A stretch of 64,000 bases of DNA from Morinoia aosen (lineage: Eukaryota; Arthropoda; Malacostraca; Amphipoda; Talitridae). Location of the stretch: assembly GCA_030386875.1 (NCBI GenBank), contig CM059572.1, positions 41,041,732 through 41,105,731 on the forward strand, given 5' to 3'. A program made the position numbers and the translations under genes. Positions 5,189 to 63,463 of the stretch are shown piece by piece (within the stretch, counting starts at the first letter, position 1; each line of letters opens with the position of its first letter). Under the pieces are notes generated by a model that saw only the letters and a program-made list of their open reading frames with translations, was not told the origin of the DNA and ran no database searches.

Positions 5189-5197
5189 GTGAGTGAC

Positions 5198-8068: not shown

Positions 8069-9006
8069 GTAAGTCTCCAGCGGAAATTAAAAACTGATTT
8101 TATTTCATTAAAGTAACTTTATTTCAGGGAAAAAATCCTATTTCTTCTGTCAGAAATGCCTGTATTTTTCTTTCAACTGTTGTGTTATGCTCTGGCTCCG
8201 ATTCCGAGCTTTTGACCGTCAATTCAGAACTACGAAGTACGTGTGAGATTTCGAAGCTTCATATCGAAGCTGATGTTATAGTTAAATAATGCATAGAGAT
8301 TTTGTGTGCTCATCCCAAAGCTGGCGCCACAGTTACATATATTTTAAATCTACACTGTTCTAATAACTCAAAGTAGTTCATTAACGCAGCTTAATGCTGC
8401 ATCCTGAGCGTACATTACCTCATTGGAATGGCATCAGTTCTTTTTATAATTTATTCATTCATCAACTCATCGTACGCAATGGACGAAATTTGAGATGTTA
8501 AATCAACAAAACGCTTGTGCACAAAGATAGCTTGACATATCGCTCTTTGCAAAAGATGTTTACAAATAAAAGATGATAAATATTGTCGAACTAGGAGAAA
8601 TTTGTAAATATTTTTCATGTTTTCTTGATCTCAATAATAATTGTTTAAAGAATGCTTAGAAGTAATGAAATGAGAGAGAGAAAATCCATAACTTGTGTGA
8701 TGAAAACATGACTTGTGTACTACTGGCAGTTATAAAATGTTGAGCTTATTTCAGAGTCGTTGTGCATCGAACCAGAATTTTAGAACATGAAATCCGCGAA
8801 ACATTGAACAAACTCGTATTTCAAATGTCAAAGTTAAGATAGTATTCCTTCTACCGGGAGTTCAGTTTGATTTCCTTATATTTATGAAAAAGTTCTACCG
8901 AATTATCTTCGCTGTCAGTACACCAATACTTTTTCTATGAATGTGGGAATTAAACAGAATTCAAAAGTTCTCCTTAAAATAAGTTGTTTTGTTTCTTGTA
9001 TTTCAG

Positions 9007-17471: not shown

Positions 17472-18614
17472 TGTCTAAAATAAAACCTTATTTTACGCTA
17501 TTTTTCCGCGATTGGGGAAACTAGCCTTCGCGAGTTGTAATAAAGTATTTTAATTAAACTTCAAAGTTAAAATACACTCTGGGAGGCCGCCCGATATTCA
17601 TAAAGTGTGAAGACTATTACAGACGGTTTCCTCGAGTCACGACACCTGAGAGAGGCAGACCCATTTCAGCCTCAGCGGCGCACACATCTCCGTGCTTAAT
17701 CAACTGCCTTTACATTCGAGAGCCCACGAAACGATGATGGGCTAAGGCACATATCCGGCACGGCCTGCGTCTTGTGGGCGCTGGCCTCTGGAGACTTCAC
17801 TTCGCCTGCACACCTGCACGCCGTAGCCTGAGTGGCAGATGTAAGTCGGGCGGCCTTTATTTCCCGATGTCTGAAGCAGGCATTAATTAGGCTAGCCTCG
17901 GTGATCCTCTGTACGGGTTGCTTTTAAACGCGACTCGTGAAGCTAGGCTTTCCCTAATCTGTGGCGACAGCCGGGGCCAGGGCTTCAAAATGAAATACCA
18001 CAACTCTATTCGCGCATAATACCAAAACTCTATTCGCGCATAATACCAAAACTCTATTCGCGCATAATACCAAAACTCTATTCGCGCATAATACCAAAAC
18101 TCTATTCGATCGTGCATAATAAAAATCTATTCGATCGTGTATAATAATATAAATTTATTCGATCGTGTATAATATTAAAAATCTATTCGATCGTGTATAA
18201 TATTAAAAATCTATTCGATCGTGTATAATATTAAAAGTCTATTCGTTCTTGCATAATATTAAAAGTCTATTCGTTCTTGCATAATATTGAAAGTATATTC
18301 GTGTACAGCACTATAATCGATAAGTCTTCCTCCAGCAATCCATGCTCCTTGGGCGATCGCGAGGGTCCTCCATCCGGGTTGCCTGCCCGGGATGCTCCGC
18401 TCGTGCCCGGCCTGCCTCGGTCATCCAGAAGACTGTTGTTTAACTCCTCTGTAATTTTTTCCTTCGAACTTTCTGAAACTTAAAACCTGCGACTCCACAA
18501 AATTCATCAAAATTAAAAGTCTTTGCGGTGGTGAATTTGGTTAATCTCCTTTGCGATAGTAAATTTGAAATTAAGGAAGAGACCTCGAAGTTTTGATTGG
18601 GGGTTTTTTCTACA
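17472..18614 (+). repeat. BEL 5' LTR
   Basis: TG...CA-ended, 1143 bp. It contains a tandem array at about 18003-18300: five copies of CTCTATTCGCGCATAATACC plus AAAA (24 bp), then about seven copies of a related 27-bp unit with TCTATTCGATCGTGTATAAT. Small frames on either strand inside it are shadows shared by both LTRs. Confidence 0.93.
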
Positions 18615-18634
18615 TGGCGCTGTAGACAGGATGC
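18615..18634 (+). promoter_or_regulatory. Candidate primer-binding site of the BEL element
   Basis: TGGCGCTGTAGACAGGATG begins directly after the 5' LTR. The TGG start fits pairing with a tRNA 3' CCA end. I could not name the tRNA. Confidence 0.6.
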
Positions 18635-18728
18635 CGAGGCGGCAGTGTGCGGGTGTGAGTCTCCTGGGTTGGCGGCCCGTGACGGGGCTGCGCTGATCTT
18701 CCAAAATTGTGAGTAACTATCTTGAACT

Positions 18729-20582: not shown

Positions 20583-20585
20583 CAG

Positions 20586-23500
20586 ATGGCAGATCGTGCA
20601 GACGTCTCTCCGACCTGTGAGCTAGGTAACTGTGGTAATTGTATTGGTTTCTCTGCATACGTCGTCTTAGACGATGAGGGGGAAGTTTTAGATAGAGATC
20701 TTCAGTTGGCAACAAGTGAAGTGTTGGATTTTTGTTATAATAGAGTAGTCAATTACGATAGAACTAGCGACTCAGAATCTCATGAAGAAAACGATGAAGT
20801 TGTTAATTTTGTTTTGAGTAATACTACTAGAGATGCAGATGGGAGACTAATCATGCCCTTGCCTTGGCGGGGTGAATTTTCGCACTTGCTGGGATCAAAT
20901 TTCGGCCTAGCGAAGAGTATACTTAGCTCTAATCTACGGAAACTTCATAAGGACAAAGAAAAATTGATTATGGTGGATAACGTTTTTAAGGATCAAGTCG
21001 AGTCAGGAGTTATTGAACGTGTGCCTAATTTTCGTGAGTTTTGTGGGAACAACAAGCATAGTTTCTTGGCTCACATGCCCATTTTCAAGTTGCAGAGAGC
21101 TACTACTAAATGTAGGGTTGTCTTTTTGTCTAACATTTGCGAGAAATTTCAGGGTAAGGTTTCAATGAACCATAATCAAGTTCTTTGTCCTGGCCCTTGC
21201 CTGAATCATAAAATTTCTACTGCCTTGTTGATGCTGAGATTCGGTGAAAGACTGTTAATTTACGACTTGCGTAAGGCGTTCCTGCAGCTCTCATTAAATG
21301 ATCTAGACTCTAACCGTTTGATGTTTCTCTGGTTTAGGGACGTATCGAACGGGGATTTTTCCTTGGAGGCCTACAGAAGTTTGAGATTGCCCTTTGGGTT
21401 AAAGCCTAGCCCGGCGTTGCTGATGTTGGCCTTGTTTAAAATTCTGGTCCTCGATGAGAGCGAGTCCAATGATTTGAAACTATTGAAAATTCGGCTGTAC
21501 TCGTTGATTTACATGGATAATGGGGCCTATGCTGGGTCAGACGAAGAAGTGCAGTACGCGTTCTCAAAGTTGAATGAAATATTTAACCCATATAAATTTG
21601 AGATTCAGCAGGTGGAAACGAACTCAGAGAAGGTGCACCAGCTGTTGGTACAAAAAGGCGAGTCTCCTCCAGAAACCAAAGTCCTAGGTATGGTTTGGGA
21701 TAAAAGTTGCGATGCACTTGCCATTGTACGATTGGAGTTGGATGTCCAGGCCAATACAAAAAGGTTAGTTCTAAAGACTATTGCATCACAATACGATAAC
21801 TTCGGTTTAATTTTGCCTTGCTTAAATAGGGCTAAGTTATTTGTTCATAAGCTGCAGTGTTGCTCTGGTTTACAGTGGGACTCTGTTTTGAATGATGAAC
21901 TCATTAGGGAGTGGAAAGTTATTGCACGCCAATTCAATGCCCGACCTAACTACACCATAAAGCGGAATGTTGGTCACCACTCTGACGCGTATGAATTGAT
22001 TGCATTTTGCGACTCTAGTAAATTGATGTACGGTGTGGTGGTCTATTTGAAGAACGTTTGCACTGGTGTGGTCAGTTTCCTGCTAGCGAAGAATAGAATT
22101 ATTAATGACAGATTGAGTGTAAAAAGCATTCCCGTTCTCGAGCTTCAGGCCGTGGCCTATGCAGTGGAAATATTGGCAGAGTTACGGGACCAATTATCTG
22201 GAGAGTCGATCTTGTGCAAGGTAAATTTCGTTAAGTTTAAAGTTTGCACAGACAGCATGATTGCACTGCACTGGATCAATTCTTACGCGCTTAAGCTCGA
22301 GAAAATGCAGAAACATTCAGTGTTTTTACAAAATAGGTTGAAACAAATAATGGAGATGACAAAATCCTTACCCGTGGAATTTTCTTTCGCAGCATCAGTT
22401 GAAAATCCTGCCGATTTGACAACAAGGCCTGTCAGTCCTAGAAAACTAAGCGTGCGCACTTTTCATGAGGGGCCAGAATTTCTTTCAGGTGATGCTGAAA
22501 TGGCTCAAGATTTTACGGTAAGCTTGCCTCACCCTTGCCAGGACAGAGAGCGACCTCCCGAGCAGACTTATCTGGCAAGCGCTGGAGTAGAGGTGAGGGG
22601 CATAGAGTTCGCCGTTCCCGCTTCGCGATTCTCGAGTTTCGCTAAATTAGTATCAGTGTACTTTATAGTAAAGAGATTTTTTTTTTGTTTCGTAAGGAAA
22701 TTCGGGTCGGAGCCGGTGAAGCAGAGATTTGAGGAAAAAAGTTCAGAATTTAACCGTTCCCAAGCTGTTACAGATCTCTTACAGCTTGACCAACAACTTC
22801 ACTTTGGCGATATTTTTGAATATTTCAGAAACAGAACTACTTTGAACGAAACTCCTAAGTTAGTCTTTCGGTTGAATTTGTTTATCGATGCAGCCGGCCT
22901 TTTGAGAGTGAAGAGCAAGTTTGGCCGGGCTAGTGATTATAGTCATAATAATTATAACCCGATTGTGCTCTCAAAGAATAGTCGTGTAACTGAGTTGATT
23001 ATTAGAGATGCACATGTGCAAGCTGCCCATTCCGGTTGTTATACTTTACTTAATCAGTTGAAGAGGGAGTACTGGGTTGAGCATTTCTTCTCCACAGTGA
23101 AACGCGCTATTAAGAACTGCGTGGTGTGTAAGAGATTCAATTCTCGTACTGTAAAATTAAATCAGAACTCTTACAGAGACTTCAGGAGAAATCCCCCTTG
23201 TATTCCGTTTCGATCGATTTTTGTGGACTATTTAGGTCCCATGTGGGTCGGTAGTCAGACGGGCAAAAGGAAAGTTTGGCTGCTGTGCGTGACGTGCTTA
23301 TGGAGTAGGGCCGTGAACCTGAAAATTTGTGCAGACCTGTCGGTAGAGTCATTCTTGACAGCATTTCAGACGCACGTATACGAGCACGGTGTGCCTAGTC
23401 GCGTGTTTTCGGACCTGGGATCGCAACTAGTCTCAGCTGCAAATATTGTCGCAGATTTCCTTAAAGATGTGCATACGCAGACCTTCTTGAGCAGAAATGG

Positions 23501-24293
23501 AGTTGAACCTGTAAGATTCGATCATTATTTCAAAGGAAACAGCTCTCTAGGCTCCTTGGTGGAGGTTTGCGTCAAGTTCGTTAAACGGCTGCTCTACAGT
23601 TCAATTAAGAACTTGGTATTACCTTTGGATAAGTTTGAGCTGCTGGTAGCGAAAGTTGTGCATTTTGTGAACAAGCGACCGCTGGCTTTTAAAGAGGCTC
23701 TAAGGGAAGATGTGGAGCAGACTCCTTTGCCCATAACCCCAGAGTTGCTTTCCAGGGGACGAGAATTGATCTCTCCTAACATTATTCCCTATCTGACCAG
23801 TGGCGAAGTTTGGCAACCCGATACCACTCGGGAGAAATCCTTACTAGACGGTTTTTCTAGGCTATCTACCATTGATGACAGACTTGTCTCTACGTACAAT
23901 GAGGCCTTCTTTGCTAATCTGTTGGATCAGGCAACGAGTGAATCGGGAAAGTATAAACCCGTGCGACATGAGAAGTTAGCAGAGGGCGACATAGTTTTAC
24001 TGAAGGAGCCAAACATGAAAGTGTATCACTACCCAATGGCAGTGGTTCATTCAACAGTCGAAAATGATTTGGGTGAGGTCACGGCAGTTACTGTTTACAA
24101 GGGTCGAACGAGAGAAACGGTCAAGAGACACGTGTCGTCGGTAATACCTTATTTGCGCCCTACGTGTAGCCCACCTGTTCAACGGGAAACATTGACTGCT
24201 CCTAATTGTCAGGAGGAGGCGCGTCCTCAAAGAGCTGCTTCCGTAAGAGGAAGCGCGATTTCTCGGCGGATGCTGGAGAGAAATCTAGTTTAA
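20586..24293 (+). CDS. pol: BEL/Pao pol: RT, RNase H, integrase
   Basis: 1235 codons in the same frame as gag, with TGA CAG ATG between them. RT motifs: YDLRKAFLQ (about residues 226-234), LPFGLKPSP (about 268-276) and the catalytic box YMDN (about 309-312), where Y-x-D-D is usual. RNase H: FCDSSKLMYGV, LELQAVAYAVE and CTDSMIALHWI. Integrase: zinc-binding HVQAAHSG...CVVCKRF, then D in FVDYLGP, D in SDLGSQL and E in LVEVCVKFVKR, a complete D-D-E set. There are no internal stops. Because pol starts after a stop, it needs readthrough or internal initiation, or the stop is an inactivating mutation. Confidence 0.92.
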   Translation: MADRADVSPTCELGNCGNCIGFSAYVVLDDEGEVLDRDLQLATSEVLDFCYNRVVNYDRTSDSESHEENDEVVNFVLSNTTRDADGRLIMPLPWRGEFSHLLGSNFGLAKSILSSNLRKLHKDKEKLIMVDNVFKDQVESGVIERVPNFREFCGNNKHSFLAHMPIFKLQRATTKCRVVFLSNICEKFQGKVSMNHNQVLCPGPCLNHKISTALLMLRFGERLLIYDLRKAFLQLSLNDLDSNRLMFLWFRDVSNGDFSLEAYRSLRLPFGLKPSPALLMLALFKILVLDESESNDLKLLKIRLYSLIYMDNGAYAGSDEEVQYAFSKLNEIFNPYKFEIQQVETNSEKVHQLLVQKGESPPETKVLGMVWDKSCDALAIVRLELDVQANTKRLVLKTIASQYDNFGLILPCLNRAKLFVHKLQCCSGLQWDSVLNDELIREWKVIARQFNARPNYTIKRNVGHHSDAYELIAFCDSSKLMYGVVVYLKNVCTGVVSFLLAKNRIINDRLSVKSIPVLELQAVAYAVEILAELRDQLSGESILCKVNFVKFKVCTDSMIALHWINSYALKLEKMQKHSVFLQNRLKQIMEMTKSLPVEFSFAASVENPADLTTRPVSPRKLSVRTFHEGPEFLSGDAEMAQDFTVSLPHPCQDRERPPEQTYLASAGVEVRGIEFAVPASRFSSFAKLVSVYFIVKRFFFCFVRKFGSEPVKQRFEEKSSEFNRSQAVTDLLQLDQQLHFGDIFEYFRNRTTLNETPKLVFRLNLFIDAAGLLRVKSKFGRASDYSHNNYNPIVLSKNSRVTELIIRDAHVQAAHSGCYTLLNQLKREYWVEHFFSTVKRAIKNCVVCKRFNSRTVKLNQNSYRDFRRNPPCIPFRSIFVDYLGPMWVGSQTGKRKVWLLCVTCLWSRAVNLKICADLSVESFLTAFQTHVYEHGVPSRVFSDLGSQLVSAANIVADFLKDVHTQTFLSRNGVEPVRFDHYFKGNSSLGSLVEVCVKFVKRLLYSSIKNLVLPLDKFELLVAKVVHFVNKRPLAFKEALREDVEQTPLPITPELLSRGRELISPNIIPYLTSGEVWQPDTTREKSLLDGFSRLSTIDDRLVSTYNEAFFANLLDQATSESGKYKPVRHEKLAEGDIVLLKEPNMKVYHYPMAVVHSTVENDLGEVTAVTVYKGRTRETVKRHVSSVIPYLRPTCSPPVQRETLTAPNCQEEARPQRAASVRGSAISRRMLERNLV

Positions 24294-24435
24294 GTTATTT
24301 GTTAAGAGTTGTATTCTCCAAATTTTGTGTTCTTACGTTTTCGTTTTCTGATTTAATGCCATAGGCTTAGTCCAGTTTTACTTTAAATGTTTAACTGTTC
24401 ATTTTCATTTCGAAAATGAACCTTGGCCCCCGGAG

Positions 24436-25578
24436 TGTCTAAAATAAAACCTTATTTTACGCTATTTTTCCGCGATTGGGGAAACTAGCCTTCGCGAGTT
24501 GTAATAAAGTATTTTAATTAAACTTCAAAGTTAAAATACACTCTGGGAGGCCGCCCGATATTCATAAAGTGTGAAGACTATTACAGACGGTTTCCTCGAG
24601 TCACGACACCTGAGAGAGGCAGACCCATTTCAGCCTCAGCGGCGCACACATCTCCGTGCTTAATCAACTGCCTTTACATTCGAGAGCCCACGAAACGATG
24701 ATGGGCTAAGGCACATATCCGGCACGGCCTGCGTCTTGTGGGCGCTGGCCTCTGGAGACTTCACTTCGCCTGCACACCTGCACGCCGTAGCCTGAGTGGC
24801 AGATGTAAGTCGGGCGGCCTTTATTTCCCGATGTCTGAAGCAGGCATTAATTAGGCTAGCCTCGGTGATCCTCTGTACGGGTTGCTTTTAAACGCGACTC
24901 GTGAAGCTAGGCTTTCCCTAATCTGTGGCGACAGCCGGGGCCAGGGCTTCAAAATGAAATACCACAACTCTATTCGCGCATAATACCAAAACTCTATTCG
25001 CGCATAATACCAAAACTCTATTCGCGCATAATACCAAAACTCTATTCGCGCATAATACCAAAACTCTATTCGATCGTGCATAATAAAAATCTATTCGATC
25101 GTGTATAATAATATAAATTTATTCGATCGTGTATAATATTAAAAATCTATTCGATCGTGTATAATATTAAAAATCTATTCGATCGTGTATAATATTAAAA
25201 GTCTATTCGTTCTTGCATAATATTAAAAGTCTATTCGTTCTTGCATAATATTGAAAGTATATTCGTGTACAGCACTATAATCGATAAGTCTTCCTCCAGC
25301 AATCCATGCTCCTTGGGCGATCGCGAGGGTCCTCCATCCGGGTTGCCTGCCCGGGATGCTCCGCTCGTGCCCGGCCTGCCTCGGTCATCCAGAAGACTGT
25401 TGTTTAACTCCTCTGTAATTTTTTCCTTCGAACTTTCTGAAACTTAAAACCTGCGACTCCACAAAATTCATCAAAATTAAAAGTCTTTGCGGTGGTGAAT
25501 TTGGTTAATCTCCTTTGCGATAGTAAATTTGAAATTAAGGAAGAGACCTCGAAGTTTTGATTGGGGGTTTTTTCTACA
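24436..25578 (+). repeat. BEL 3' LTR
   Basis: Same length as the 5' LTR and, by eye, the same sequence, including the internal 24/27-bp array at about 24967-25264. It is preceded by a purine/C-rich stretch (CTTGGCCCCCGGAG), the likely polypurine-tract position. Confidence 0.93.
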
Positions 25579-26203
25579 TTAATTATTAAAGCATTTGTCT
25601 TTAAACTTATACCGTTTTTTAACTTTAGGACAAGCTCCACCTCGCCTTCAACATTACTCTTAGCGTTAACGCCTTTTATAGTCAGAGAACTTGGCTTCAC
25701 GTCATTACTTATCTCACTAATTCTGTGGTAGCTGATTAGACATTTCTCTGATCCTGAATCAATCAATGCATTCCACAGGTCTGCATCTTTTCTAAGCACA
25801 ATCATGGGCTTATGACTTTTTCGTAATACAAATAATTCATTTTGTCCTGTAACTTCAACTTCTTCATCTTCTTCGTATTTACAAACGTTCGCCGTCACAT
25901 GGCTTTCAAATTCAGTGCCATGAGCATTTAAATCTTTCAAATCGCTTAAATCCACCTCTCCCAGCGATTCATATCTATTTTGACACTTAATTAGTGGGTC
26001 AATTATCTCAACATTTTTAACGAGGGAACCTCCAGACATGTTTAACACATCAACTCTCTCGACATTTTTAACGAGGAAATCTTCAGCACCAGAATTCTCC
26101 TCGGGTTCACAGGGAGCTACTGACGTAGAGTCACACTTAGTTATTTCAATTTCATTTTTACCATTGACGTTATTTCTATCGGAAATGAAATCGTCTCCGC
26201 AGC
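25579..26203 (-). pseudogene. pol: Ty3/gypsy pol fragment A: linker and protease
   Basis: The frame, -1 relative to gag, reads from an acidic linker (KNEIEITKCDSTSVAPCEPE) into an aspartic protease with the active-site triad in ALIDSGSEKCLISY and a hydrophobic strand ELVLKLKNGISLKTNALI. It is cut at TTAAT 25579-25583 by the BEL LTR. Its continuation is at 17471. A predicted protein continuing into the LTR (to 25404) is an artefact of the insertion. Confidence 0.85.
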
Positions 26204-35860: not shown

Positions 35861-36028
35861 ATGGGAGTGGTAGCAAAATTGCCTTTTTTAGCACTTGTGC
35901 TGATAAGCACGACCTTCATATCAAGCGTGACGTGTGATTCGACCTGCGGAAATTATAAAAGGTGTAAAGACTGCATCACTGCAGCGTCCCAAAGATGTGG
36001 GTGGTGTGAAGATAGTACTGTAGGACAG
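35861..36028 (+). CDS. Integrin beta gene 2, exon 1: signal peptide and PSI start
   Basis: ATG 35861 (context AACAGACATGG) starts MGVVAKLPFLALVLISTTFI, a signal peptide ending near VTC-DS. It is followed by CGNYKRCKDCITAASQRCGW-CED, the Cys pattern C-x5-C-x2-C...C-x-W-C of PSI domains. It ends GGACAG|GTGAGT, phase 0. Reading past this donor meets TGA after 11 codons. The exon end and donor are the seed of the 52-bp array that follows. Confidence 0.93.
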
Positions 36029-36830
36029 GTGAGTGTGGTACCTGGCCTGCATCTGGTGTGAAGGGAGCACTGTAGGACAGGAGAGTGTGATACCTGGCCT
36101 GCATCTGGTGTGAAGGGAGCACTGTATGACAGGTGAGTGAGGTACCTGGCCTGCATCTGGTGTGAAAGGAGCACTGTAGGACAGGTGAGTGTGATACCTG
36201 GCCTGCATCTGGTGTGAAGGGAGCACTGTAGGACAGGTGAGTGTGATACCTGGCCTGCATCTGGTGTGAAGGGAGCACTGTAGGACAGGTGAGTGTGATA
36301 TCTGGCCTGCATCTGGTGTGAAGGGAGCACTGTAGGACAGGTGAGTGTGATACCTGGCCTGCATCTGGTGTGAAGGGAGCACTGTAGGACAGGTGAGTGT
36401 GATACCTAGCCTGCATCTGGTGTGAAGGGAGCACTTTAGGACAGATGAGTGTGATACCTGGCCTGCATCTGGTGTGAAGGGAGCACTGTAGGACAGGTGA
36501 GTGTGATACCTGGCCTGCATCTGGTGTGAAGGGAGCACTGTAGGACAGGTGAGTGTGATACCTGGCCTGCATCTGGTGTGAAGGGAGCACTGTAGGACAG
36601 GTGAGTGTGATACCTGGCCTGCATCTGGTGTGAAGAGAGCACTGTAGGACAGGTGAGTGTGATACCTGGCCTGCATCTGGTGTGAAGGGAGCACTGTAGG
36701 ACAGATGAGTGTGATACCTGGCCTGCATCTGGTGTGAAGGGAGCACTGTAGGACAGGTGAGTGTGATACCTGGCCTGCATCTGGTGTGAAGGGAGCACTG
36801 TAGGACAGGTGTTACCTGGCCTGTGGGATC
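36000..36830. repeat. 52-bp array of exon 1 end plus 5' splice site
   Basis: About 15 units. Each carries TGGTGTGAAGGGAGCACTGT AGGACAG followed by GTGAGTGTGATACCTGGCCTGCATC. The first 29 bases copy the end of exon 1 (codons for W-C-E-[D/G]-S-T-V-G-Q) and the rest copies the intron start. Every unit therefore holds a good CAG|GTGAGT donor. The unit length is not a multiple of 3, so frames shift between units. Confidence 0.95.
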
Positions 36831-37290: not shown

Positions 37291-40200
37291 GTAACACTGC
37301 ACGTAACACTCTCGTAACACTGCGCGTAGCACTCTCGCAACACTGCGCGTAACACTCTCGCAACACTGCACGTAACACTCTCGTAACACTGCACGTAACA
37401 AGCTCGTAACACTCTCGTAAGACTCTCGTAACACTGCGCGTAACAAGCTCGTAACACTCTCGTAACACTGCGCGTAACACTCTCGCAACACTGCGCGTAA
37501 CACTTTCGCAACACTGCACGTAACACTCTCGTAACACTGCACGTAACAAGCTCGTAACACTCTCGTAACACTGCGCGTAAAACTCTCGTAACACTCTCGT
37601 AACACTGTCGTAACACTGCGCGTAACACTCTCGTAACACTGCGCGTAACACTCTTGTAACACTCTCGTAACACTCTCGTAACACTCAGGTAACACTCTTG
37701 TAACACTCTCGTAACACTGCACGTAACACTCTCGTAACACTGCGCGTAACACTCTCGTAACACTCTCGTAACACTCTCGTAACACTGCGCGTAACACTCT
37801 CGTAACACTGCGCGTACCACTCTTGTAACACTCTCGTAACACTCTCGTAACACTCTCGTAACACTCTCGTAACACTCTTGTAACACTCTCGTAACACTGC
37901 GCATAACACGCTCGTAACACTCTCGTAACACTGCACGTAACACTCTCGTAACACTGCACGTAACACTGCGCGTAACACGCTCGTAACACGCTCGTAACAC
38001 GCTCGTAACACTCTCGTAACACTGCATGTAACACTCTCGTAACACTGCGCGTAACACTCTTGTAACACTCTCGTAACACTCTCGTAACAATCTCGTAACA
38101 CTCTCGTAACACTGCACGTAACAATCTCGTAACACTGCGCGTAACACTCTCGTAACACTCTCGTAACACTCTCGTAACACTCTCGTAACACTCTCGTAAC
38201 ACTCTCGTAACACTGCGCGTAACACTCTCGTAACACTCTCGGAACACTGCGCATAACACGCGCGTAACACTCTCGTAACACAGCACGTAACACTCTCGTA
38301 ACACTGCACGTAACACTCTCGTAACACTGCACGTAACACTCTCGTAACACTGCACGTAACACTGCGCGTAACACGTTCGTAACACTCTCGTAACACGCTC
38401 GTAACACTCTCGTAACACTGCACGTAACACTCTCGTAACACTGTGCGTAACACTCTCGTAACACTCTCGTAACACTCTCGTAACACTCTCGTAACACTGC
38501 GCGTAACACTGTCGTAACACTATCGTAACACTCTCGTAACACTGTCGTAACACTCTCGTAACACTGTGCGTAACCCTCTCGTAACACTGCGCGTAACACT
38601 CTCGTAACACTGCGCGTAACACTCTCGTAACACTGCGCGTAACACTCTCGTAACACTGCGCGTAACACTCTCGTAACACTGCGCGTAACACTATCGTAAC
38701 ACTGCGCGTAACACTCTCGTAACACTGCGCGTAACACTCTCGTAACACTGCGCGTAACACTCTCGTAACACTGCGCGTAACACTCTCGTAACACTCTCGT
38801 AACACTGCGCGTAACACTCTCGTAACACTGCGCGTAACACTATCGTAACACTGCGCGTAACACTCTCGTAACACTGCGCGTAACACTCTCGTAACACTCT
38901 CGTAACACTGCGCGTAACACTATCGTAACACTGCGCGTAACACTATCGTAACACTGCGCGTAACACTCTCGTAACACTGCGCGTAACACTCTCGTAACAC
39001 TGCGCGTAACACTCTCGTAACACTCTCGTAACACTGCGCGTAACACTATCGTAACACTGCACGTAACACTCTCGTAACACTGCACGTAACACTCTCGTAA
39101 CACTGCACGTAACACTGCGCGTAACACGTTCGTAACACTCTCGTAACACGCTCGTAACACTCTCGTAACACTGCACGTAACACTCTCGTAACACTGTGCG
39201 TAACACTCTCGTAACACTCTCGTAACACTCTCGTAACACTCTCGTAACACTGCGCGTAACACTGTCGTAACACTATCGTAACACTCTCGTAACACTGTCG
39301 TAACACTCTCGTAACACTGTGCGTAACCCTCTCGTAACACTCTCGTAACACTCTCGTAACACTGCGCGTAACACTGTCGTAACACTGCACGTAACACTAT
39401 CGTAACACTGCGCGTAACACTCTCGTAACACTGCGCGTAACACTCTCGTAACACTGCGCGTAACACTCTCGTAACACTGCGCGTAACACTCTCGTAACAC
39501 TCTCGTAACACTGCGCGTAACACTCTCGTAACACTGCGCGTAACACTATCGTAACACTGCGCGTAACACTCTCGTAACACTGCGCGTAACACTCTCGTAA
39601 CACTCTCGTAACACTGCGCGTAACACTATCGTAACACTGCGCGTAACACTATCGTAACACAGCGCGTAACACTCTCGTAACACTGCGCGTAACACTCTCG
39701 TAACACTGCGCGTAACACTCTCGTAACACTCTCGTAACACTGCGCGTAACACTATCGTAACACTGCGCGTAACACTCTCGTAACACTGCGCGTAACACTC
39801 TCGTAACACTGCGCGTAACACTCTCGTAACACTCTCGTAACACTGCGCGTAACACTATCGTAACACTGCGCGTAACACTCTCGTAACACTGCGCGTAACA
39901 CTATCGTAACACTGCGCGTAACACTCTCGTAACACTGCGCGTAACACTCTCGTAACACTGCGCGTAACACTCTCGTAACACTCTCGTAACACTGCGCGTA
40001 ACACTATCGTAACACTGCGCGTAACACTCTCGTAACACTGCGCGTAACACTATCGTAACACTGCGCGTAACACTATCGTAACACTGCGCGTAACACTATC
40101 GTAACACTGCGCGTAACACTCTCGTAACACTGCGCGTAACACTATCGTAACACTGCGCGTAACACTCTCGTAACACTGCGCGTAACACTATCGTAACACT

Positions 40201-43200
40201 GCGCGTAACACTCTCGTAACACTGCGCGTAACACTATCGTAACACTGCGCGTAACACTCTCGTAACACTGCGGGTAACACTCTCGTAACACTGCGCGTAA
40301 CACTCTCGTAACACTGCGCGTAACACTCTCGTAACACTCTCGTAACACTGCGCGTAACACTATCGTAACACTGCGCGTAACACTCTCGTAACACTGCGCG
40401 TAACACTCTCGTAACACTGCGCGTAACACTCTCGTAACACTGCGCGTAACACTCTCGTATCACTGCGCGTAACACTCTCGTAACACTGCGCGTAACACTC
40501 TCGTAACACTGCGCGTAACACTCTCGTAACACTGCGCGTAACACTCTCGTAACACTCTCGTAACACTGCGCGTAACACTATCGTAACACTGCGCGTAACA
40601 CTCTCGTAACACTGCGCGTAACACTCTCGTAACACTGCGCGTAACACTCTCGTAACACTGCGCGTAACACTCTCGTAACACTGCGCGTAACACTCTCGTA
40701 ACACTGCGCGTAACACTCTCGTAACACTGCGCGTAACACTCTCGTAACACTGCGCGTAACACTCTCGTAACACTGCGCGTAACACTCTCGTAACACTCTC
40801 GTAACACTGCGCGTAACACTATCGTAACACTGCGCGTAACACTCTCGTAACACTGCGCGTAACACTATCGTAACACTGCGCGTAACACTATCGTAACACT
40901 GCGCGTAACACTATCGTAACACTGCGCGTAACACTCTCGTAACACTGCGCGTAACACTCTCGTAACACTGCGCGTAACACTATCGTAACACTGCGCGTAA
41001 CACTCTCGTAACACTGCGCGTAACACTATCGTAACACTGCGCGTAACACTCTCGTAACACTGCGCGTAACACTATCGTAACACTGCGCGTAACACTCTCG
41101 TAACACTGCGCGTAACACTCTCGTAACACTGCGCGTAACACTCTCGTAACACTCTCGTAACACTGCGCGTAACACTATCGTAACACTGCGCGTAACACTC
41201 TCGTAACACTGCGCGTAACACTCTCGTAACACTGCGCGTAACACTCTCGTAACACTCTCGTAACACTGCGCGTAACACTATCGTAACACTGCGCGTAACA
41301 CTATCGTAACACTGCGCGTAACACTCTCGTAACACTGCGCGTAACACTCTCGTAACACTGCGCGTAACACTCTCGTAACACTGCGCGTAACACTCTCGTA
41401 ACACTCTCGTAACACTGCGCGTAACACTATCGTAACACTGCGCGTAACACTATCGTAACACTGCGCGTAACACTCTCCTAACACTGCGCGTAACACTCTC
41501 GTAACACTCTCGTAACACTGCGCGTAACACTCTCGTAACACTCTCGTAACACTGCGCGTTACACTCTCGTAACACTGCGCGTAACACTCTCGTAACACTA
41601 TCGTAACACTGCGCGTAACACTCTCGTAACACTCTCGTAACAATGCGCGTAACACTCTCGTAACACTGCGCGTAACACTATCGTAACACTCTCGTAACAC
41701 TGCGCGTTACACTCTCGTAACACTGCGCGTAACACTCTCGTAACACTCTCGTAACAATGCGCGTAACACTCTCGTAACACTGCGCGTAACACTATCGTAA
41801 CACTGCGCGTAACACTCTCGTAACACTGCGCGTAACACTCTCGTAACACTGCGCGTAACACTCTCGTAACACTGCGCGTAACACTCTCGTAACACTCTCG
41901 TAACACTGCGCGTAACACTATCGTAACACTGCGCGTAACACTATCGTAACACTGCGCGTAACACTCTCGTAACACTGCGCGTAACACTCTCGTAACACTC
42001 TCGTAACACTGCGCGTAACACTCTCGTAACACTATCGTAACACTGCGCGTAACACTCTCGTAACACTGCGCGTAACACTCTCGGAACACTCTCGTAACAC
42101 TACGCGTAACACTCTCGTAACACTGCGCGTAACACTATCGTAACACTGCGCGTAACACTCTCGTAACACTGCGCGTAACACTCTCGTAACACTGCGCGTA
42201 ACACTCTCGTAACACTGAGCGTAACACTGTCGTAACACTATCGTAACACTCTCGTAACACTGTCGTAACACCGCGCGTAACACTCTCGTAACACTGCGCG
42301 CAACACTCTCGTAACACTGCGCGTAAAACTCTCATAACACGCTCGTAACACTCTCGCATCACTGCACGTAACACTCTCGCAACACTGCGCGTAACACTCT
42401 CGTAACACTGCGCGTAACACTCTCTTAACACTGCGCGTAACACTCTCGCAACACTGCGCGTAACACTCTCGTAACACTGCGCGTAACACTCTCATAACAC
42501 GCTCGCAACACTCTCGCATCACTGCACGTAACACTCTCGCAACACTGCGCGTAACACTCTCGTAACACTGCGCGTAACACTCTCGTAACACTGCGCGTAA
42601 CACTCTCGTAACACTGCGCGTAACACTCTCGTAACACTGCGCGTAACACTCTCGCAACACTGCGCGTAACACTCTCGTAACACTGCGCGTAACACTCTCG
42701 CAACACTGCACGTAACACTCTCGCAACACTGCGCGTAACACTCTCGCAACACTGCGCGTAACACTCTCGTAACACTGCGCGTAACACTCTCGTAACACTG
42801 CGCGTAACACTGCGCGTAACACTCTCGTAACACTGCACGTAACACTCTCGCAACACTGCGCGTAACACTCTCGTAACACTGCGCGTAACACTCTCGTAAC
42901 ACTGCGCGTAACACTCTCGCAATACTGCGCGTAATACTCTCGCAACACTGCACGTAACACTCTCGTAACACGCTCGTAACACTCTCGTGACACTGCACGT
43001 AACACTGTCGTAACATTCTCGTAACACTGCGCGTAACACTCTCGTAACACTGCACGTAACACTGTCGTAACATTCTCGTAACACTGCGCGTAACACTCTC
43101 GTAACACTGCACGTAACACTCTCGTAATACGCTCGAAACACACTCTCGTAACACTGCACGTAACACTGTCGTAACATTCTCGTAACACTGCGCGTAACAC

Positions 43201-45200
43201 TCTCGTAACACTGCGCGTAACACTCTCGTAACACGCTCGTAACACTGCGCGTAACACTCTCGTAACACTGCACGTACCACTGTCGTAGCATTCTCGTAAC
43301 ACTGCGCGTAACACTCTCGTAACACTGCGCGTAACACTCTCGTAACACGCTCGTAACACTCTCGTAACACTGCGCGTAACACTGTCGTAACATTCTCGTA
43401 ACTTTGCGCGTAACACTCTCGTAACACTGCGCGTAACACTCTCGTAACACTGCACGTAACACTCTCGTAACACTGCACGTAACACTCTCGCAACACTGCG
43501 CGTAATACTCTCGCAACACTGCACGTAACACTATCGTAACACTGCACGTAACACTATCGTAACACTGCGCGTAACACTCTCGTAACACTGCGCGTAACAC
43601 TCTCGTAACACTGCGCGTAACACTCTCGTAACACTATCGTAACACTGCACGTAACACTATCGTAACACTGCGCGTAACACTCTCGTAACACTGCGCGTAA
43701 CACTCTCGTAACACCGCGCGTAACACTCTCGTAACACTGCACGTAACACTATCGTAACACTGCACGTAACACTATCGTACCACTGCGCGTAACACTCTCG
43801 TAACACTTCGCGTAACACTCTCGTAACACTCTCGTAACACTCTCGTAACACTGCGCGTAACACTCTCGTAACACTGCGCGTAACACTCTCGAAACACTGC
43901 GCGTAATACTCTCGCAACACTGCACGTAACACTATTGTAACACTGCGCGTAACACTCTCTTAACACTGCTCGTAACACTCTCGCAACACTGCGCGTAACA
44001 CTCTCGTAACACTGCGCGCAACACTCTCGTAACACGCTCGTAACACTCTCGCAACACTGCACGTAACACTCTCGCAACACTGCGCGTAACACTCTCGTAA
44101 CACTGCGCGTAACACTCTCGTAACACTGCGCGCAACACTCTCGCAACACTGCGCGTAATACTCTCGCAACACTGCACGTAACACTCTCGTAACACGCTCG
44201 TAACACTCTCGTAACACTGCGCGTAACACTGTCGTAACATTCTCGCAACACTGCGCGTAACACTCTCGTAACACTGCACGTAACACTGTCGTAACATTCT
44301 CGTAACACTGCGCGTAACACTCTCGTAACACTGCACGTAACACTCTCATAATACGCTCGAAACACACTCTCGTAACACTGCACGTGACACTGTCGTAACA
44401 TTCTCGTAACACTGCGCGTAACACTCTCGTAACACTGCGCGTAACACTCTCGTAACACGCTCGTAACACTCTCGTAACACTGCGCGTACCACTGTCGTAA
44501 CATTGTCGTAACACTGCGCTTAACACTCTCGTAACACTGCGCGTAACACTCTCGTAACACTGCACGTAACACTCTCGTAATACGCTCGAAACACACTCTC
44601 GTAACACTGCACGTAACACTGTCGTAACATTCTCGTAACACTGCGCGTAACACTCTCGTAACACTGCACGTAACACTGTCGTAACATTCTCGTTACACTG
44701 CGCGTAACACTCTCGTAACACTGCGTGTAACACTGTCGTAACATTCTCGTAACACTGCGCGTAACACCCTCGTAACACTGCACGTAACACTCTCGTAATA
44801 CGCTCGAAACACACTCTCGTAACACTGCTCGTAACACTGTCGTAACACTACACGTAACACTCTCGTAACACTGCACGTAACACGCTCGCAACACTCTCGT
44901 AACACTGCACGCAACACCGCGTAACTGCCTGCAACACTGCCCGTAACACTGAACGCAATACTGCTCGCAACACTGCACGCAACATTGCAACACTGCCCGC
45001 AACACTGCCCGTAACACTGCCCGCAACACTGCCCGCAACACTGCCCGCAACACTGCCCGTAACACTGCCCGCAACACTGCACGCAACATTGCACGCAACA
45101 CCGCAACACTGCCCGCAACACTGCCCGCAACACTGCCCGTAACGCTGCCCGTAAAACTACACTTAACACACACGTAACACTGCACGCAACACTCACACAA
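37291..45200. repeat. 7.9-kb satellite of 11/12-bp monomers
   Basis: Built from CGTAACACTGCG (12 bp) and CGTAACACTCT (11 bp), mostly alternating as a 23-bp dimer, roughly 340 dimers. Variants ATCG, GTCG, GCACG and GCTCG are scattered. Large blocks recur: the stretch at 38370-38900 is repeated about 0.7 kb later (39120-39600). A block with TAATACGCTCGAAACACACT recurs at about 43127, 44350, 44579 and 44797. The last 250 bases change to CACTGCCCGCAA monomers and run into the exon 2 acceptor. All minus-strand frames are open for hundreds of codons because the unit lacks stops; they are artefacts. Confidence 0.97.
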
Positions 45201-45203
45201 CAG

Positions 45204-45360
45204 AGCGCGTGTGTCGGAGCGGACGAGGGAGCCATGAAGTGCAAGACCGGCACGCTGCACAACCCCCAGAACGAGTACCACTACAACGCGAAGGACCACT
45301 TGAGCAACAACCCCAGTATGGACATCTTCCCGAAAAAAAACTTGGTTAAGATAAGAGCAG
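45204..45360 (+). CDS. Integrin beta gene 2, exon 2: rest of PSI
   Basis: It follows CACACAACAG and reads SACVGADEGAMKCKTGTLHN... NPSMDIFPKKNLVKIRA, ending GCAG|GTCAGT (phase 0 in, 1 out). The cysteines complete the PSI domain. The basic FPKKNLVKIRAG leads into the hybrid strand, as in other beta chains (K-L-R-x-G). The 7.9-kb satellite abuts the acceptor. Confidence 0.88.
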
Positions 45361-47796: not shown

Positions 47797-47960
47797 GAAT
47801 GGTAATTTGACAAAAATCATGATTGGCGTAACACGTAACACAGGAGACACGGTCGACATCCAACTGTGCACCATAATCCAAGCTTTAAAATGGCACTTTC
47901 AGAATGGTTATTTGAAATAATCTTGATTGGCATGACGCAGGCGAAACCGTCGACGTCCAA
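47797..47960. repeat. Duplicated 3' splice site of exon 3
   Basis: 47797-47867 is a diverged copy of 47901-47980: AGAATGGTAATTTGACAAAA...ATTGGCGTAACACGTAACACAG, then GAGACACGGTCGACATCCAA. The true border is GCATGACGCAG|GCGAAACCGTCGACGTCCAA. The upstream copy keeps AG but has lost the coding match after about 40 bases. Confidence 0.8.
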
Positions 47961-48100
47961 TTGAGCATCAAAGTCCAGGACAAGCAGCCGGTCGACCTGT
48001 ACTATCTGACGGACATCTCGGGCAGCATGAAGGACGACATGGAAAACATTAAAAAAGTGGCAGCCGAACTGTGGAACGGGTTAAAAAACGTCACCAACAA
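47941..48100 (+). CDS. Integrin beta gene 2, exon 3: start of beta-I domain with MIDAS
   Basis: It reads ETVDVQLSIKVQDKQPVDLY then YLTDISGSMKDDMENIKKVA and ends GLKNVTN plus two bases at AA|GTGAGG (phase 1 in, 2 out). Residues D133-x-S135-x-S137 form the MIDAS and D140-D141 the ADMIDAS of the ligand-binding beta-I domain, so metal binding looks intact. Confidence 0.95.
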
Positions 48101-48105
48101 GTGAG

Positions 48106-48300
48106 GCACTCTGATTTTCAACACGTGGTAGACTGAGATCGATTTTTCATTCGTGGTAGACTGAGATACTGGAATTTTTCATTCGTGGTAGACTGAGATA
48201 CTCGGATTTTTCATTCGCGGTAGACTGAGATACTAGGATATTTCATTTGTGGTGGACTGAGATACTGGGATTTTCAACATGTCGAATATTGAGATACAGT
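48106..48300. repeat. 34-bp imperfect repeats next to the exon 3 donor
   Basis: Five or so copies of GTGGTAGACTGAGATACTGG plus ATTTTTCATTC begin a few bases after the donor. Diverged copies reappear at about 49400-49620. Confidence 0.8.
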
Positions 48301-51170: not shown

Positions 51171-51239
51171 CCTGCGGCTCGGCTTTGGGACGTTCGTTGA
51201 CAAGAAGATGCTGCCTTACTACGATCATCACGTCGCGGC
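51171..51239 (+). CDS. Integrin beta gene 2, exon 4
   Basis: A 69-nt exon between TTTCATAG and GC|GTAAGT (phase 2 in, 2 out). It encodes LRLGFGTFVDKKMLPYYDHH-VAA, the highly conserved F/L-R-x-G-F-G-S/T-F-V-D-K strand of the beta-I domain. It is too short for ORF-based detection but certain by sequence and phase. Confidence 0.95.
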
Positions 51240-53761: not shown

Positions 53762-53849
53762 TTCCTCAGACATCTCTCAGCTCTGCGAAGGTGCCCTCGG
53801 GTTCTGCAACGCTATGTCTCTTGAAGATTACAACGCAGATAAATTCCAG
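53762..53849 (+). CDS. Integrin beta gene 2, exon 5: specificity loop
   Basis: The acceptor AACCCTTCGCAG is chosen because it alone keeps phase with exon 4. It encodes SSDISQLCEGALGFCNAMSL then EDYNADKFQ and ends TTCCAG|GTAAAT (phase 2 in, 0 out). This is the beta-I specificity-determining region. Here the two cysteines enclose six residues, and the segment is shorter than the fly C-E-N-C-K-A-P-Y-G-Y pattern. Alignment of the second Cys is ambiguous. Confidence 0.9.
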
Positions 53850-54204: not shown

Positions 54205-54375
54205 GATATAATCAGCAAAACTGTGGTGATGGATAACCAGGACGCACCAGAAGGAGGCTTTGACGCTCTCCTCCAGGTTTTGAAATGCAAAGAGGAGATT
54301 GGGTGGACGGAAGACTCGAGGAAGATTGTCCTCTTCACGACGGATAACGCTTTTCACTACGCTGGAGATGGAAAG
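54205..54375 (+). CDS. Integrin beta gene 2, exon 6: SyMBS and central beta-I
   Basis: 57 codons, phase 0-0: DIISKTVVMDNQDAPEGGFD ... GWTEDSRKIVLFTTDNAFHY-AGDGK. N-x-D-x-P-E is the synergistic metal-site motif of integrin beta-I domains, and the T-D-x-x-F-H-x-A-G-D-G-K block is near-invariant. Confidence 0.96.
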
Positions 54376-54841: not shown

Positions 54842-55487
54842 TTCATACAGAATTGAGTTTCTTCCACAACTTATTCAACGTTGGGCTTCTATCACAGCTT
54901 GCAGGCATTATATAGTTTCTTAAACTTTAGGTTGCAGCTGATAGGCATTTTACAATTTCGTACTCGATGGGTATCTATAGCAGCTGATATGCATTTTAAA
55001 GTTTCTTTTACCCTGGATTGGTACGGTAGCTGATACGCCTTATAAAGTTTCTTACACCTTGGGTTTATTTGCACCTGCTAGCCATTTTACTTTATTCTTA
55101 CACCCTGGGCTTATATCGCAGTCGGTAGGTATTTTACAGTTCCTACAGGTTGGCTTATATTGCAGTAGGTAGCCATTTTACAGTTTTTCATTGCCATAAT
55201 TTACAATGCGGCTGGCAAGTATTTCACTGTTTCTCACACACCGGGTTTACATTGCAACTGGCAAGTATTTCACTGTATCTCACACACCGGGTTTACATTG
55301 CAGCTGGCAAGTATTTCACTGTATCTCACACACCGGGTTTACATTGCAACTGGCAAGTATTTCACTGTATCTCACACACCGGGTTTACATTGCAACTGGC
55401 AAGTATTTCACTGTATCTCACACACCGGGTTTACATTGCAGCTGGCAAGTATTTCACTGTCTCTCACACGCTGGTTTTACATTGCAG
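54842..55487. repeat. 46-bp array of the exon 7 3' splice site
   Basis: About 14 units of CTGGCAAGTATTTCACTGTA + TCTCACACACCGGGTTTACA + TTGCA(A/G). Each unit's end copies the intron end (TTTACATTGCAG) and its start copies the first bases of exon 7 (CTGGCAGGCATTTC). Units become more alike towards the exon: those before 55200 are strongly diverged, while the last six are nearly identical. Some units end GCAG and some GCAA, so only a few retain a usable AG. Confidence 0.92.
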
Positions 55488-55583
55488 CTGGCAGGCATTT
55501 CGAGAGTGAATGACGGCGAGTGTCACTACGCTTCCGGCTCCTATACCGAGTCCCTAACTATGGACTATCCTAGTGTTTATCAG
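55488..55583 (+). CDS. Integrin beta gene 2, exon 7
   Basis: 32 codons, phase 0-0: LAGISRVNDGECHYASGSYT-ESLTMDYPSVYQ, matching the family L-G-G-I-x-x-P-N-D-G-x-C-H-L...Y...D-Y-P-S-I. It ends TATCAG|GTATGT. The minimal form uses the first donor at 55584. Thirteen to fourteen further identical donors, in frame, follow at 66-bp intervals, so longer exon forms are possible. The frame is open to 56633. Confidence 0.93.
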
Positions 55584-56625
55584 GTATGTGACCCAGCTTC
55601 TGGCTCCTATACCGAGTCCCTAACTATGGACTATCCTAGTGTTTATCAGGTATGTGACCCAGCTTCCGGCTCCTATACCGAGTCCCTAACTATGGACTAT
55701 CCTAGTGTTTATCAGGTATGTGTCCCAGCTTCCGGCTCCTATACCGAGTCCCTAACTATGGACTATCCTAGTGTTTATCAGGTATGTGTCCCAGCTTCTG
55801 GCTCCTATACCGAGTCCCTAACTATGGACTATCCTAGTGTTTATCAGGTATGTGTCCCAGCTTCTGGCTCCTATACCGAGTCCCTAACTATGGACTATCC
55901 TAGTGTTTATCAGGTATGTGACCCAGCTTCCGGCTCCTATACCGAGTCCCTAACTATGGACTATCCTAGTGTTTATCAGGTATGTGTCCCAGCTTCTGGC
56001 TCCTATACCGAGTCCCTAACTATGGACTATCCTAGTGTTTATCAGGTATGTGTCCCAGCTTCTGGCTCCTATACCGAGTCCCTAACTATGGACTATCCTA
56101 GTGTTTATCAGGTATGTGTCCCAGCTTCCGGCTCCTATACCGAGTCCCTAACTATGGACTATCCTAGTGTTTATCAGGTATGTGTCCCAGCTTCTGGCTC
56201 CTATACCGAGTCCCTAACTATGGACTATCCTAGTGTTTATCAGGTATGTGTCCCAGCTTCTGGCTCCTATACCGAGTCCCTAACTATGGACTATCCTAGT
56301 GTTTATCAGGTATGTGACCCAGCTTCCGGCTCCTATACCGAGTCCCTAACTATGGACTATCCTAGTGTTTATCAGGTATGTGACCCAGCTTCTGGCTCCT
56401 ATACCGAGTCCCTAACTATGGACTATCCTAGTGTTTATCAGGTATGTGTCCCAGCTTCCCGCTCCTATACCGAGTCCCTAACTATGGACTATCCTGGTGT
56501 TTATCAGGTATGTGTCCCAGCTTCCGGCTCCTATACCGAGTCCCTAACACCTAACTATGGACTATCCTGGTGTTTATCAGGTATGTGTCCCAGCTTCCGG
56601 CTCCTACACCGAGTCCCTAACTATG
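55530..56625. repeat. 66-bp in-frame array of exon 7 end plus 5' splice site
   Basis: Fifteen full units and two altered ones. Each has about 50 bases of exon 7 (codons for A-S-G-S-Y-T-E-S-L-T-M-D-Y-P-S-V-Y-Q), then GTATGTGTCCCAG or GTATGTGACCCAG. The unit is 22 codons with no stop, adding V-C-[V/D]-P per unit. Substitutions are few (GTC/GAC, TTCT/TTCC, one TCCC, one S-to-G), so the array is young. The sixteenth unit carries a short internal duplication (CTAACACCTAACTATGG) that shifts the frame. Confidence 0.96.
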
Positions 56626-56639
56626 GAAAATAATTGATG

Positions 56640-57512: not shown

Positions 57513-57677
57513 ATCTCTGATGCTGCAGGCAAAAATCATATTGCCATCATATTTGCCGTGGTGAAGGAAGTGAAGCCGCTCTACGACAAGCTGTCGAGCC
57601 AAGTGGCCTTGTCAACTGTCAGCACTATTGAGAAGGACTCATCGAACATCTTGAATGTCATCACCACTCAAGTGGAG
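57513..57677 (+). CDS. Integrin beta gene 2, exon 8: end of beta-I domain
   Basis: 55 codons, phase 0-0: ISDAAGKNHIAIIFAVVKEV... LYDKLSSQVALSTVSTIEKD-SSN. It matches the beta-I strand I-x-x-I-F-A-V-T followed by Y-x-x-L and the D-S-S-N motif. Acceptor CCCATTTTCAG, donor GTGGAG|GTAATG. Confidence 0.95.
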
Positions 57678-58337
57678 GTAATGCTTCTGTTAATAATGAA
57701 CATGTTGCCTAAACATGACCCCTCGTCTTTGGCTGGGTCATAGAGAAAGCATTGAATAATGTCCACCGTGCTAGGGTTAAAGAGGCTTACACTAATTTAA
57801 TCTTGGAGAAATAAACGAATAGGGAGTGGCACCCATTACGAAAGGCAGGAGCATGGCAACAAGTTAGGAGATACACGGCAGAGCAACATTTGCATGAACT
57901 GGATGTGCACATCGGTATGGCAAATCGAGAATGGCCATTTTTTACACGGTGGGTAGACAAGAAAATGGGAAAAAAAATATTTGGTAGCGACAATACAGGT
58001 GTGGACCGGGAATTTCTATTGAACGTACTACCATAACTGAACAAACTGCTTGCTTAAAACTAATACGTAAATAAAATCGAAATGTTTTCTTTTAAGTTCT
58101 GTAGGGATCATCAGATGCGCTCTTAAGCGAGTTACTTTGAATCCTTACGACTGTTGTGAATAACAAAATAAATTCATTCTTTTCCAGGAATTAATGAAAA
58201 AGTATATCTTCATCAGGAATTACTTTAAATTAATTACTTCTCTAAAAAGGAATTCATGAAAAAGTAATTATTTTTCAGGAATTACTTTGAATCCTTACGA
58301 CTGTTGTGAATAACAAAACAAATTCTTTATTTTTCAG
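57678..58337 (+). other. Gene 2 intron 8 with duplicated acceptor
   Basis: 58131-58220 and 58281-58370 are near-copies (ACTTTGAATCCTTACGACTG ... TTTCAGNAATTAATGAAAAAG). An intermediate partial copy is at 58231-58280. The second copy contains the real exon 9 start. The first carries a decoy TTTTCCAG and about 20 bases of exon 9-like sequence. Confidence 0.85.
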
Positions 58338-58487
58338 AAATTAATGAAAAAGTTTACGTTCACGAGTAGAGACGCACCAGAGTATTTGGACATCAGCTTC
58401 ACCAACACCTGCCCTGGGCCAGATAAAGAAGAAAAATGCGATGACTTGAAGTTGGGGGATGAGGCTACCGTTACTGCTCATATCAAG
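58338..58487 (+). CDS. Integrin beta gene 2, exon 9: hybrid domain
   Basis: 50 codons, phase 0-0: KLMKKFTFTSRDAPEYLDIS ... EEKCDDLKLGDEATVTAHIK. It matches the family's return into the hybrid domain (I-x-F-x-S-x-C ... C-x-x-L-x-x-G-x-x-V-x-F). Donor AAG|GTATGA. Confidence 0.95.
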
Positions 58488-61663: not shown

Positions 61664-61777
61664 CTGAAAGAATGTCCGTCGAATGGCAAGACTAAAGATA
61701 CGTTCTCTGTAGGAGCTTCAGAAGTGAACAACTTTGTTGAAATCAACATCGAATATCTGTGTAACTGCAACTGCGAG
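61664..61777 (+). CDS. Integrin beta gene 2, exon 10
   Basis: 38 codons, phase 0-0: LKECPSNGKTKDTFSVGASE ... EINIEYLCNCNCE. It ends the hybrid domain and begins the C-x-C-x-C run of the first I-EGF module. Strong acceptor CCTTTTCTCTTCCAG; donor GAG|GTAAGC. Confidence 0.96.
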
Positions 61778-63241: not shown

Positions 63242-63463
63242 AACACGGGCGACAGCACAAAGTGCAGCAACGCAGGCACCTACGAGTGCGGCACGTGTAT
63301 CTGCGATGACGGCCACTTCGGCTCCGACTGCAGCTGCGGCATCGACGACACTGCGAGCAACACCCAGTGCCGCGTGGACGGTACGGGGAGTGTGTGTGCT
63401 GGCAGAGGGCAGTGCATCTGCGGGGAGTGTCACTGCGATACTTTCTTGGAGGATGGCAAAGAG
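63242..63463 (+). CDS. Integrin beta gene 2, exon 11: I-EGF repeats
   Basis: 74 codons, phase 0-0, with 14 or more cysteines: CSNAGTYECGTCICDDGHFG-SDCSC ... CAGRGQCICGECHCD. The C-G-x-C-x-C and G-x-x-C-x-C spacing is that of integrin EGF modules 1-2. The acceptor CTGCTGTGACAG has a weak pyrimidine tract. Donor GAG|GTAATA. The base composition is GC-rich compared with the introns. The gene continues beyond 64000. Confidence 0.95.

Follow-up and report, generated by a model that had tools for sequence, protein, structure and literature searches.

A 66-bp minisatellite multiplies an exon end and its splice donor in frame within the beta-I domain of an integrin gene

Background

Choice among identical 5' splice sites is a textbook question that has been approached mostly in small constructs carrying two such sites, and in the classic experiments with duplicated sites the downstream of the identical donors was often favoured. 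An integrin-beta gene of Morinoia aosen raises this question in a natural setting, as the end of its exon 7 and the adjoining splice donor are repeated in a tandem array that offers 16 donors to a single exon. An earlier note on this DNA proposed that the array could provide a graded set of isoforms, or length alleles, of the ligand-binding domain from one locus. Whether the array is such a ladder or a fast-changing repeat that has taken in a splice site is the question considered here. The window, i.e. the whole stretch of 64,000 nucleotides that was analysed, is located at C17:41041732-41105731 in a genome searched over 1.99 Gb in 29 contigs.

Results and discussion

The integrin-beta gene of the window

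The plus strand of the window carries an integrin-beta gene, hereafter referred to as gene B, with 11 exons between 35861 and 63463 that encode 520 amino acids without a stop (Table 1). The joined protein matches PF00362 (beta-I, the integrin beta VWA domain) with 273.6 bits, the Pfam cut-off being 24.8, and EGF_integrin with a score of 29 for a cut-off of 27; I-EGF_1 (25.1, cut-off 26.1) and PSI (20.2, cut-off 23.1) both fall slightly under. The order of the exons is that of a Hyalella azteca protein (P0032), and Hyalella azteca provides the best-scoring named protein match of gene B (42%) among the best 120 of the 264 matches. All the protein matches retrieved are at most 60% identical, and hence none is from the species itself and they are silent on its mRNAs. 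Since a stop codon is absent up to exon 11, a continuation of the reading frame downstream is expected.

Table 1. Exons of gene B and the repeat arrays associated with them (positions in the window)
Feature	Position	Strand	Remarks
Exon 1	35861..36028	+	Start codon; ends at the first donor of the 52-bp array
52-bp array repeating the exon 1 donor	36002..36811	+	16 copies, 13 with GT; open protein from the first only
8-kb GTAACACT-type array	37291..45198	+	Ends 5 bases short of exon 2
Exon 2	45204..45360	+	
Exon 3	47941..48100	+	Intronic array 48124-48297 starts directly past its donor
Exon 4	51171..51239	+	
Exon 5	53762..53849	+	
Exon 6	54205..54375	+	
46-bp array repeating the exon 7 acceptor (TTACATTGCAG/CTGGCA)	55200..55501	+	Older diverged units back to about 54840 (by eye)
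Exon 7 proper	55488..55583	+	96 nt, LAGISRVNDGECHYASGSYTESLTMDYPSVYQ; ends at donor 1
66-bp array, 16 CAG/GTATGT donors	55530..56627	+	Last exonic bases 55583 + 66n to 56507, then 56580
Last full unit of the 66-bp array	56508..56580	+	73 bp, with 7-bp insertion; shifts donor 16 out of frame
Exon 8	57513..57677	+	Phase 0; joined by exon 7
Exon 9	58338..58487	+	One extra acceptor copy at 58148-58206
Exon 10	61664..61777	+	
Exon 11 (integrin EGF)	63242..63463	+	

The exon 7 array

With a period of 66, 16.5 copies, 96% matches and a score of 2014 in Tandem Repeats Finder (55530-56627), the array at the end of exon 7 is not a product of chance. The sequence TATCAGGTATGT was found 16 times in the window at a spacing of 66 bases, the last one at 73, and the donor CAG/GTATGT is kept in all the 16 copies. 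Each unit consists of the last 54 bases of the exon and the first 12 bases of the intron, and the partition into 50 exonic bases, a donor and 10 intronic bases in the earlier note has to be amended. Donors 1 to 15 are in phase with exon 8 and stop-free, and all 15 of the corresponding eleven-exon products are open, as had been supposed for every donor; the exception is donor 16, which is out of phase and runs into a stop, the last full unit being lengthened by a 7-bp insertion. Every added unit of 22 residues brings one Cys (VC[D/V]P) into the beta-I domain, as anticipated. The in-frame multiplication of an exon end and its donor within an integrin beta-I domain, as put forward in the earlier note, is supported.

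Variation within the first 14 units is confined to four columns, and each of the 14 further copies in frame shows 0-2 differences from the exonic copy over 54 bases. The array thereby appears to be young, as claimed before, or homogenised. Higher-order blocks, suggested by eye, were dropped as a candidate feature of the array (P 0.15). Conservation of the donors as a sign of their use was also rejected, because invariant donors are expected where 14 units have four variable columns and because 3 of the 16 donors of the exon 1 array in the window copy are dead.

Exon 7 joined to exon 8 through donor 1 aligns without a gap over 83 residues with integrin beta-1 (PDB 9p6s), and against beta-3 chains the aligned stretch of the same product is one residue longer; donor 1 is thus predicted to give the normal beta-I spacing. 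With one extra unit, the best match of the exon 7-8 product (a beta-3 chain) splits into two overlapping pieces. The PF00362 total is then 275.6 bits in two stretches as against the value given above in one stretch, and as it does not drop on addition of a unit, this score cannot separate the isoforms. A survey of the junction covered 182 integrin proteins, including the best 120 of the 264 matches, of which 31 remained unparsed; exactly 14 residues are present at the exon 7-8 junction in 142 of the 151 parsed proteins, the pattern being misplaced in the other 9, and no insert was found at this position among the 151.

U1 duplex values were compared for the exon 7 donors and nine other donors of gene B, leaving out that of exon 10. 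They range from -9.1 to -10.2 at exon 7 and from -5.1 to -9.1 at eight of the others, with -14.1 at exon 1. In U1 pairing, the exon 7 donors match or beat eight of the nine others and so rank with the stronger donors of gene B.

Four gene copies and the number of donors

The DNA of the exon 7 array matches at least three further places on C17. Four genes are located there, A at 41.015 Mb, B in the window, A' at 43.690 Mb and B' at 43.746 Mb, all of them with the same eleven exons and 520 open residues. The number of exon 7 donors is one in A, one in A', three in B' and 16 in B; all three donors of B' give open products, and one and the same partial unit closes the arrays of B' and B. B' lies 2.67 Mb from B, and over three stretches outside the arrays the two genes differ at 23 of 6811, 81 of 9599 and 5 of 9801 positions (99.1-99.9% identity). 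Variation in array length, which the earlier note had raised, is therefore seen between two nearly identical genes with 16 and 3 donors, respectively, and alleles and paralogues would both fit.

At every tested point across 620 kb, the block that holds the genes has a second match 2.65-2.67 Mb away; for the points at 40.70 and 41.32 Mb, it is found at 43.36 Mb with 98-99% identity and at 43.97 Mb with 85-91%, respectively. The second block is quite probably a retained second haplotype, in which case the 3 and 16 donors would be alleles. A and A' are less alike, their collinear pieces being 92.7-98.7% identical among the matches listed, which argues against a retained haplotype; alternatively, the block may have been duplicated recently as a whole in one large event. 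The blocks also differ in other respects. A stretch resembling an LTR element (17472-25579), with identical 1144-bp ends and long ORFs, is present in the block of B and absent at the matching place in B', which points to a recent insertion, and a dispersed element of about 231 bp at 40.70 Mb is missing at 43.36 Mb. Positions 1-8100 of the window hold the 3' end of the sister gene A, with tail-like exons near 640-801 and 5023-5187 and, by eye, an exon resembling a membrane span near 7926, the membrane and tail-like parts being in different frames.

The four genes are likely to make protein. The dN/dS values are 0.52-0.63 between the A-type and B-type genes and 1.00 between A and A'; being at most moderately below 1, they indicate weak constraint, on which the argument from exon 1 given below rests. 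Between B and B' the value is 0.18, on five differences.

In the sister gene A, where the unit is bounded in B, the motif GCTTC occurs both in the exon (TAC-GCTTC-CGG) and in the intron (GTATGTTTTCCA-GCTTC-GTC), 69 bases apart; the intronic GCTTC of A' is off by one base. On the simplest reading, this microhomology suggests a likely origin of the founding duplication.

Other arrays of the gene

The 52-bp donor array at exon 1 is common to all four gene copies. The number of GT donors, identified by pattern, is 5 in A, 13 in A', 17 in B' and 13 in B, and none of those downstream of the first leaves the protein open (0 of 4, 0 of 12, 0 of 16 and 0 of 12, respectively; 0 of 44 in total); in the window copy, a junction at any one of the 15 downstream copies ends the protein at a stop after 66 residues. 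In each of the four genes, the exonic copy has GATAGT and most of the array copies have GGGAGC. Hence, if the genes make protein, the first of many near-identical donors is taken.

Acceptors of the gene are also repeated. The exon 2 acceptor, located at the end of the 8-kb array, is spanned by 203 matches, and the two upstream AG-bearing copies of the exon 7 acceptor, at 46 and 184 nt, both give stops. The exon 7 acceptor array is largest in intron 6 of gene A (L007:4079-8690), with 69 acceptor-like units, 31 of them with AG, as against 7-11 units in the other copies. Selection for frame in the 66-bp unit was considered and rejected as unneeded, since the neighbouring units of 52 and 46 bp are not multiples of three and a unit of 22 codons need not mean selection; divisibility of 66 by three is about a one-in-three event.

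A second donor array in a betaPS-like gene

A distant betaPS-like gene at C17:57.33 Mb also has a donor array where the exon matching exon 7 ends (L044:1605-1842). This array is independent of that in the window gene. GGCGCAG occurs in it six times, in five cases with GT directly after it, in irregular GT-rich units at a spacing of 33, 48, 41, 63 and 52 bases. When exons 7 and 8 alone are considered, the extra GT donors are open at 33, 81 and 237 nt and closed at 122 nt; as three of the four are open, frame breaks are a poor general argument. Diverged copies of the exon 6 donor and the exon 8 acceptor lie near these sites in the same gene, and a copy of the exon 8 acceptor with the exon start precedes the real site by 163 bp (L033:1309-1363).

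Repeats and splice sites

In the window gene, a spanning copy is present at 5 of 21 splice sites, compared with 239 of 1000 random 60-mers in a control that excludes positions within the 8-kb array; the count of 5 of 21, taken without a control, is the same in each of the other three gene copies. The betaPS-like gene has a spanning copy at 6 of 22 splice sites versus 188 of 667 random positions, leaving out exons with unclear ends and the C22 and C12 loci. The frequency of repeats at splice sites is thus close to that at random positions in both genes. Random placement of the eight gene B arrays with paddings of 0, 10 and 30 bp gave P values of 0.0002-0.0073 for the full set and 0.0012-0.0058 when the 8-kb array was removed, in a test designed post hoc with the pattern already seen and with short rows of two or three copies excluded beforehand. 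At 18 other loci, 10 of 36 ends, taken as approximate match ends, fall in repeats, the repeat fraction being 0.261. Targeting of splice sites by the arrays was dropped as a candidate since the spanning-copy and placement tests disagree. The conclusion drawn is that splice sites are not exempt from minisatellites here; it is not claimed that the minisatellites seek them out.

Explanations of the exon 7 array

We consider it moderately probable that a minisatellite has engulfed the splice donor of exon 7, the first donor being dominant, the length of the array hypervariable and leaky isoforms of +22n residues possible. The 66-bp unit is repeated in one lineage of the integrin-beta gene pair, with 3 and 16 donors in its two near-identical members, and is not repeated in the two sister genes. 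The first duplication would have occurred between two copies of GCTTC, one exonic and the other 12 nt into the intron. Splicing would take place mostly at the 5'-most donor to yield a normal beta-I domain, with the remainder of the array removed along with intron 7; the downstream donors, having the same sequence, would be used at a probably low level and give isoforms longer by 22n residues that are mostly non-functional. The array would grow and shrink like the other minisatellites of this genome. This explanation draws on the 520 residues open in all four copies, the fit of the donor 1 product, the series of 1, 1, 3 and 16 donors, the GCTTC microhomology, the exon 1 array with 0 of 44 open downstream donors and the array of the betaPS-like gene. 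It is opposed by the open frame at 15 of the 16 exon 7 donors and at three of the four extra donors of the betaPS-like gene, and by A', which lacks an exact intronic GCTTC. Given the strength of the exon 7 donors and the preference for downstream sites in the classic experiments, later donors may be used at a leaky level or even predominate. In human cells, a branch-like ACTAAC between two competing donors lowered the use of the intron-proximal one (PMC1877881); by analogy, CCCTAAC inside the 66-bp unit is a weak hint that donor 1 may be favoured.

It is unlikely that the array is instead a ladder, in which several in-frame donors are usefully employed to make integrins of +22n residues and the array length sets the range for each allele. 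Such a ladder would be consistent with 15 in-frame donors of equal strength, with the existence of 3- and 16-donor copies of which the shorter is open throughout and with the open extra donors of the betaPS-like gene, and the two downstream repeat donors used in IFI6 (PMC4526556) offer a precedent; however, the junction of 14 residues is constant in the parsed integrins apart from the mis-parsed ones, and each unit would put one more Cys into the domain. The frame-breaking units of the neighbouring arrays imply no frame constraint, and the exon 1 array implies that a first donor is usable against near-identical rivals if the gene works. A length dial in the strict sense, with the 15 in-frame donors used at graded levels, the ligand-binding domain extended by 0-14 blocks of 22 residues, the range set by array length and the 3- and 16-donor alleles segregating, would be more doubtful still.

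The array might also erase itself, each unit serving as a 66-nt intron (GTATGT...CCCTAAC...TATCAG) that is removed singly or in blocks so that any donor would lead to the same mRNA. All 15 inter-donor intervals start with GTATGT, end with TTTATCAG and hold a branch-like YNCTRAY site, but tandem AG/GT boundaries yield GT..AG units automatically and the branch-like match may be due to chance. The last 20 bases of the unit include 12 pyrimidines, within the range of 9-18 at ten gene B acceptors; against this, a nearer AG (CCTAG) would shift the frame and 66 nt is short for an intron. Despite its likeness to intron gain by AGGT duplication or to recursive splicing, removal of this kind is improbable. 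Equally improbable is an assembly artefact, with a wrong copy number or with the 3- and 16-donor copies being one mis-assembled locus. In its favour, the block is rematched at 2.65-2.67 Mb over 620 kb, as expected of an unpurged second haplotype. Against it, the unit variants and the 7-bp insertion differ consistently between the copies, both B and B' contain the repeated unit, and a retained haplotype would mean an allele difference rather than an error.

Relation to known systems

Engulfment of a donor by a minisatellite has a precedent in the human gene 6-16 (IFI6), where a minisatellite was found in 1995 to give multiple splice donors to an interferon-induced transcript and two downstream repeat units are reported to act as donors, giving three mRNAs (PMC4526556). 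In both cases, a minisatellite provides several donors for one exon and steps the protein, as predicted for the integrin; downstream use is reported for IFI6 and would here be a prediction from the DNA, and the present case differs in its 66-bp unit of 22 codons, in being an integrin beta, in the several arrays of the genome and in the copy-number series. In human segmental duplicates, tandem repeats that vary at the boundaries of exons and introns change splicing (PMC2812944). Minisatellite changes at the exon-intron boundaries of recent gene duplicates alter the splicing potential there as here; new introns with transcript support are described in that study, unlike the 16-fold donor of the integrin, which is seen in the genome. 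Intron gain through tandem duplication (PMC4974935) similarly makes GT...AG units from tandem AG/GT stretches, with a branch-like site present in the integrin unit; the integrin has many units rather than one, and their removal would be hypothetical. The ratchet points of recursive splicing in Drosophila, described as occurring mostly in long introns and needing a cryptic exon (PMC8605326), juxtapose an acceptor-like sequence and a donor as every unit border does here (TATCAG/GTATGT), but the border here is the exon's own end, repeated. No integrin with such a donor array was found among the papers listed in the literature searches, which accords with the novelty claimed for it in the earlier note, although the general arrangement had already been published for IFI6/6-16. 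Thus, the kind is known, and the integrin case with 16 donors is a new and extreme form of it.

Conclusion

The related genes provide a natural series of 1, 1, 3 and 16 identical donors at a matching exon, which constitutes a test of donor choice, and their exon 1 adds 5-17 near-identical donors with protein from the first only. The likely founding duplication is visible with its microhomology, and the arrays suggest a genome whose intron minisatellites do not spare splice sites. The exon 7 array looks less like an isoform ladder by design than like a fast-changing repeat into which a splice site was taken.
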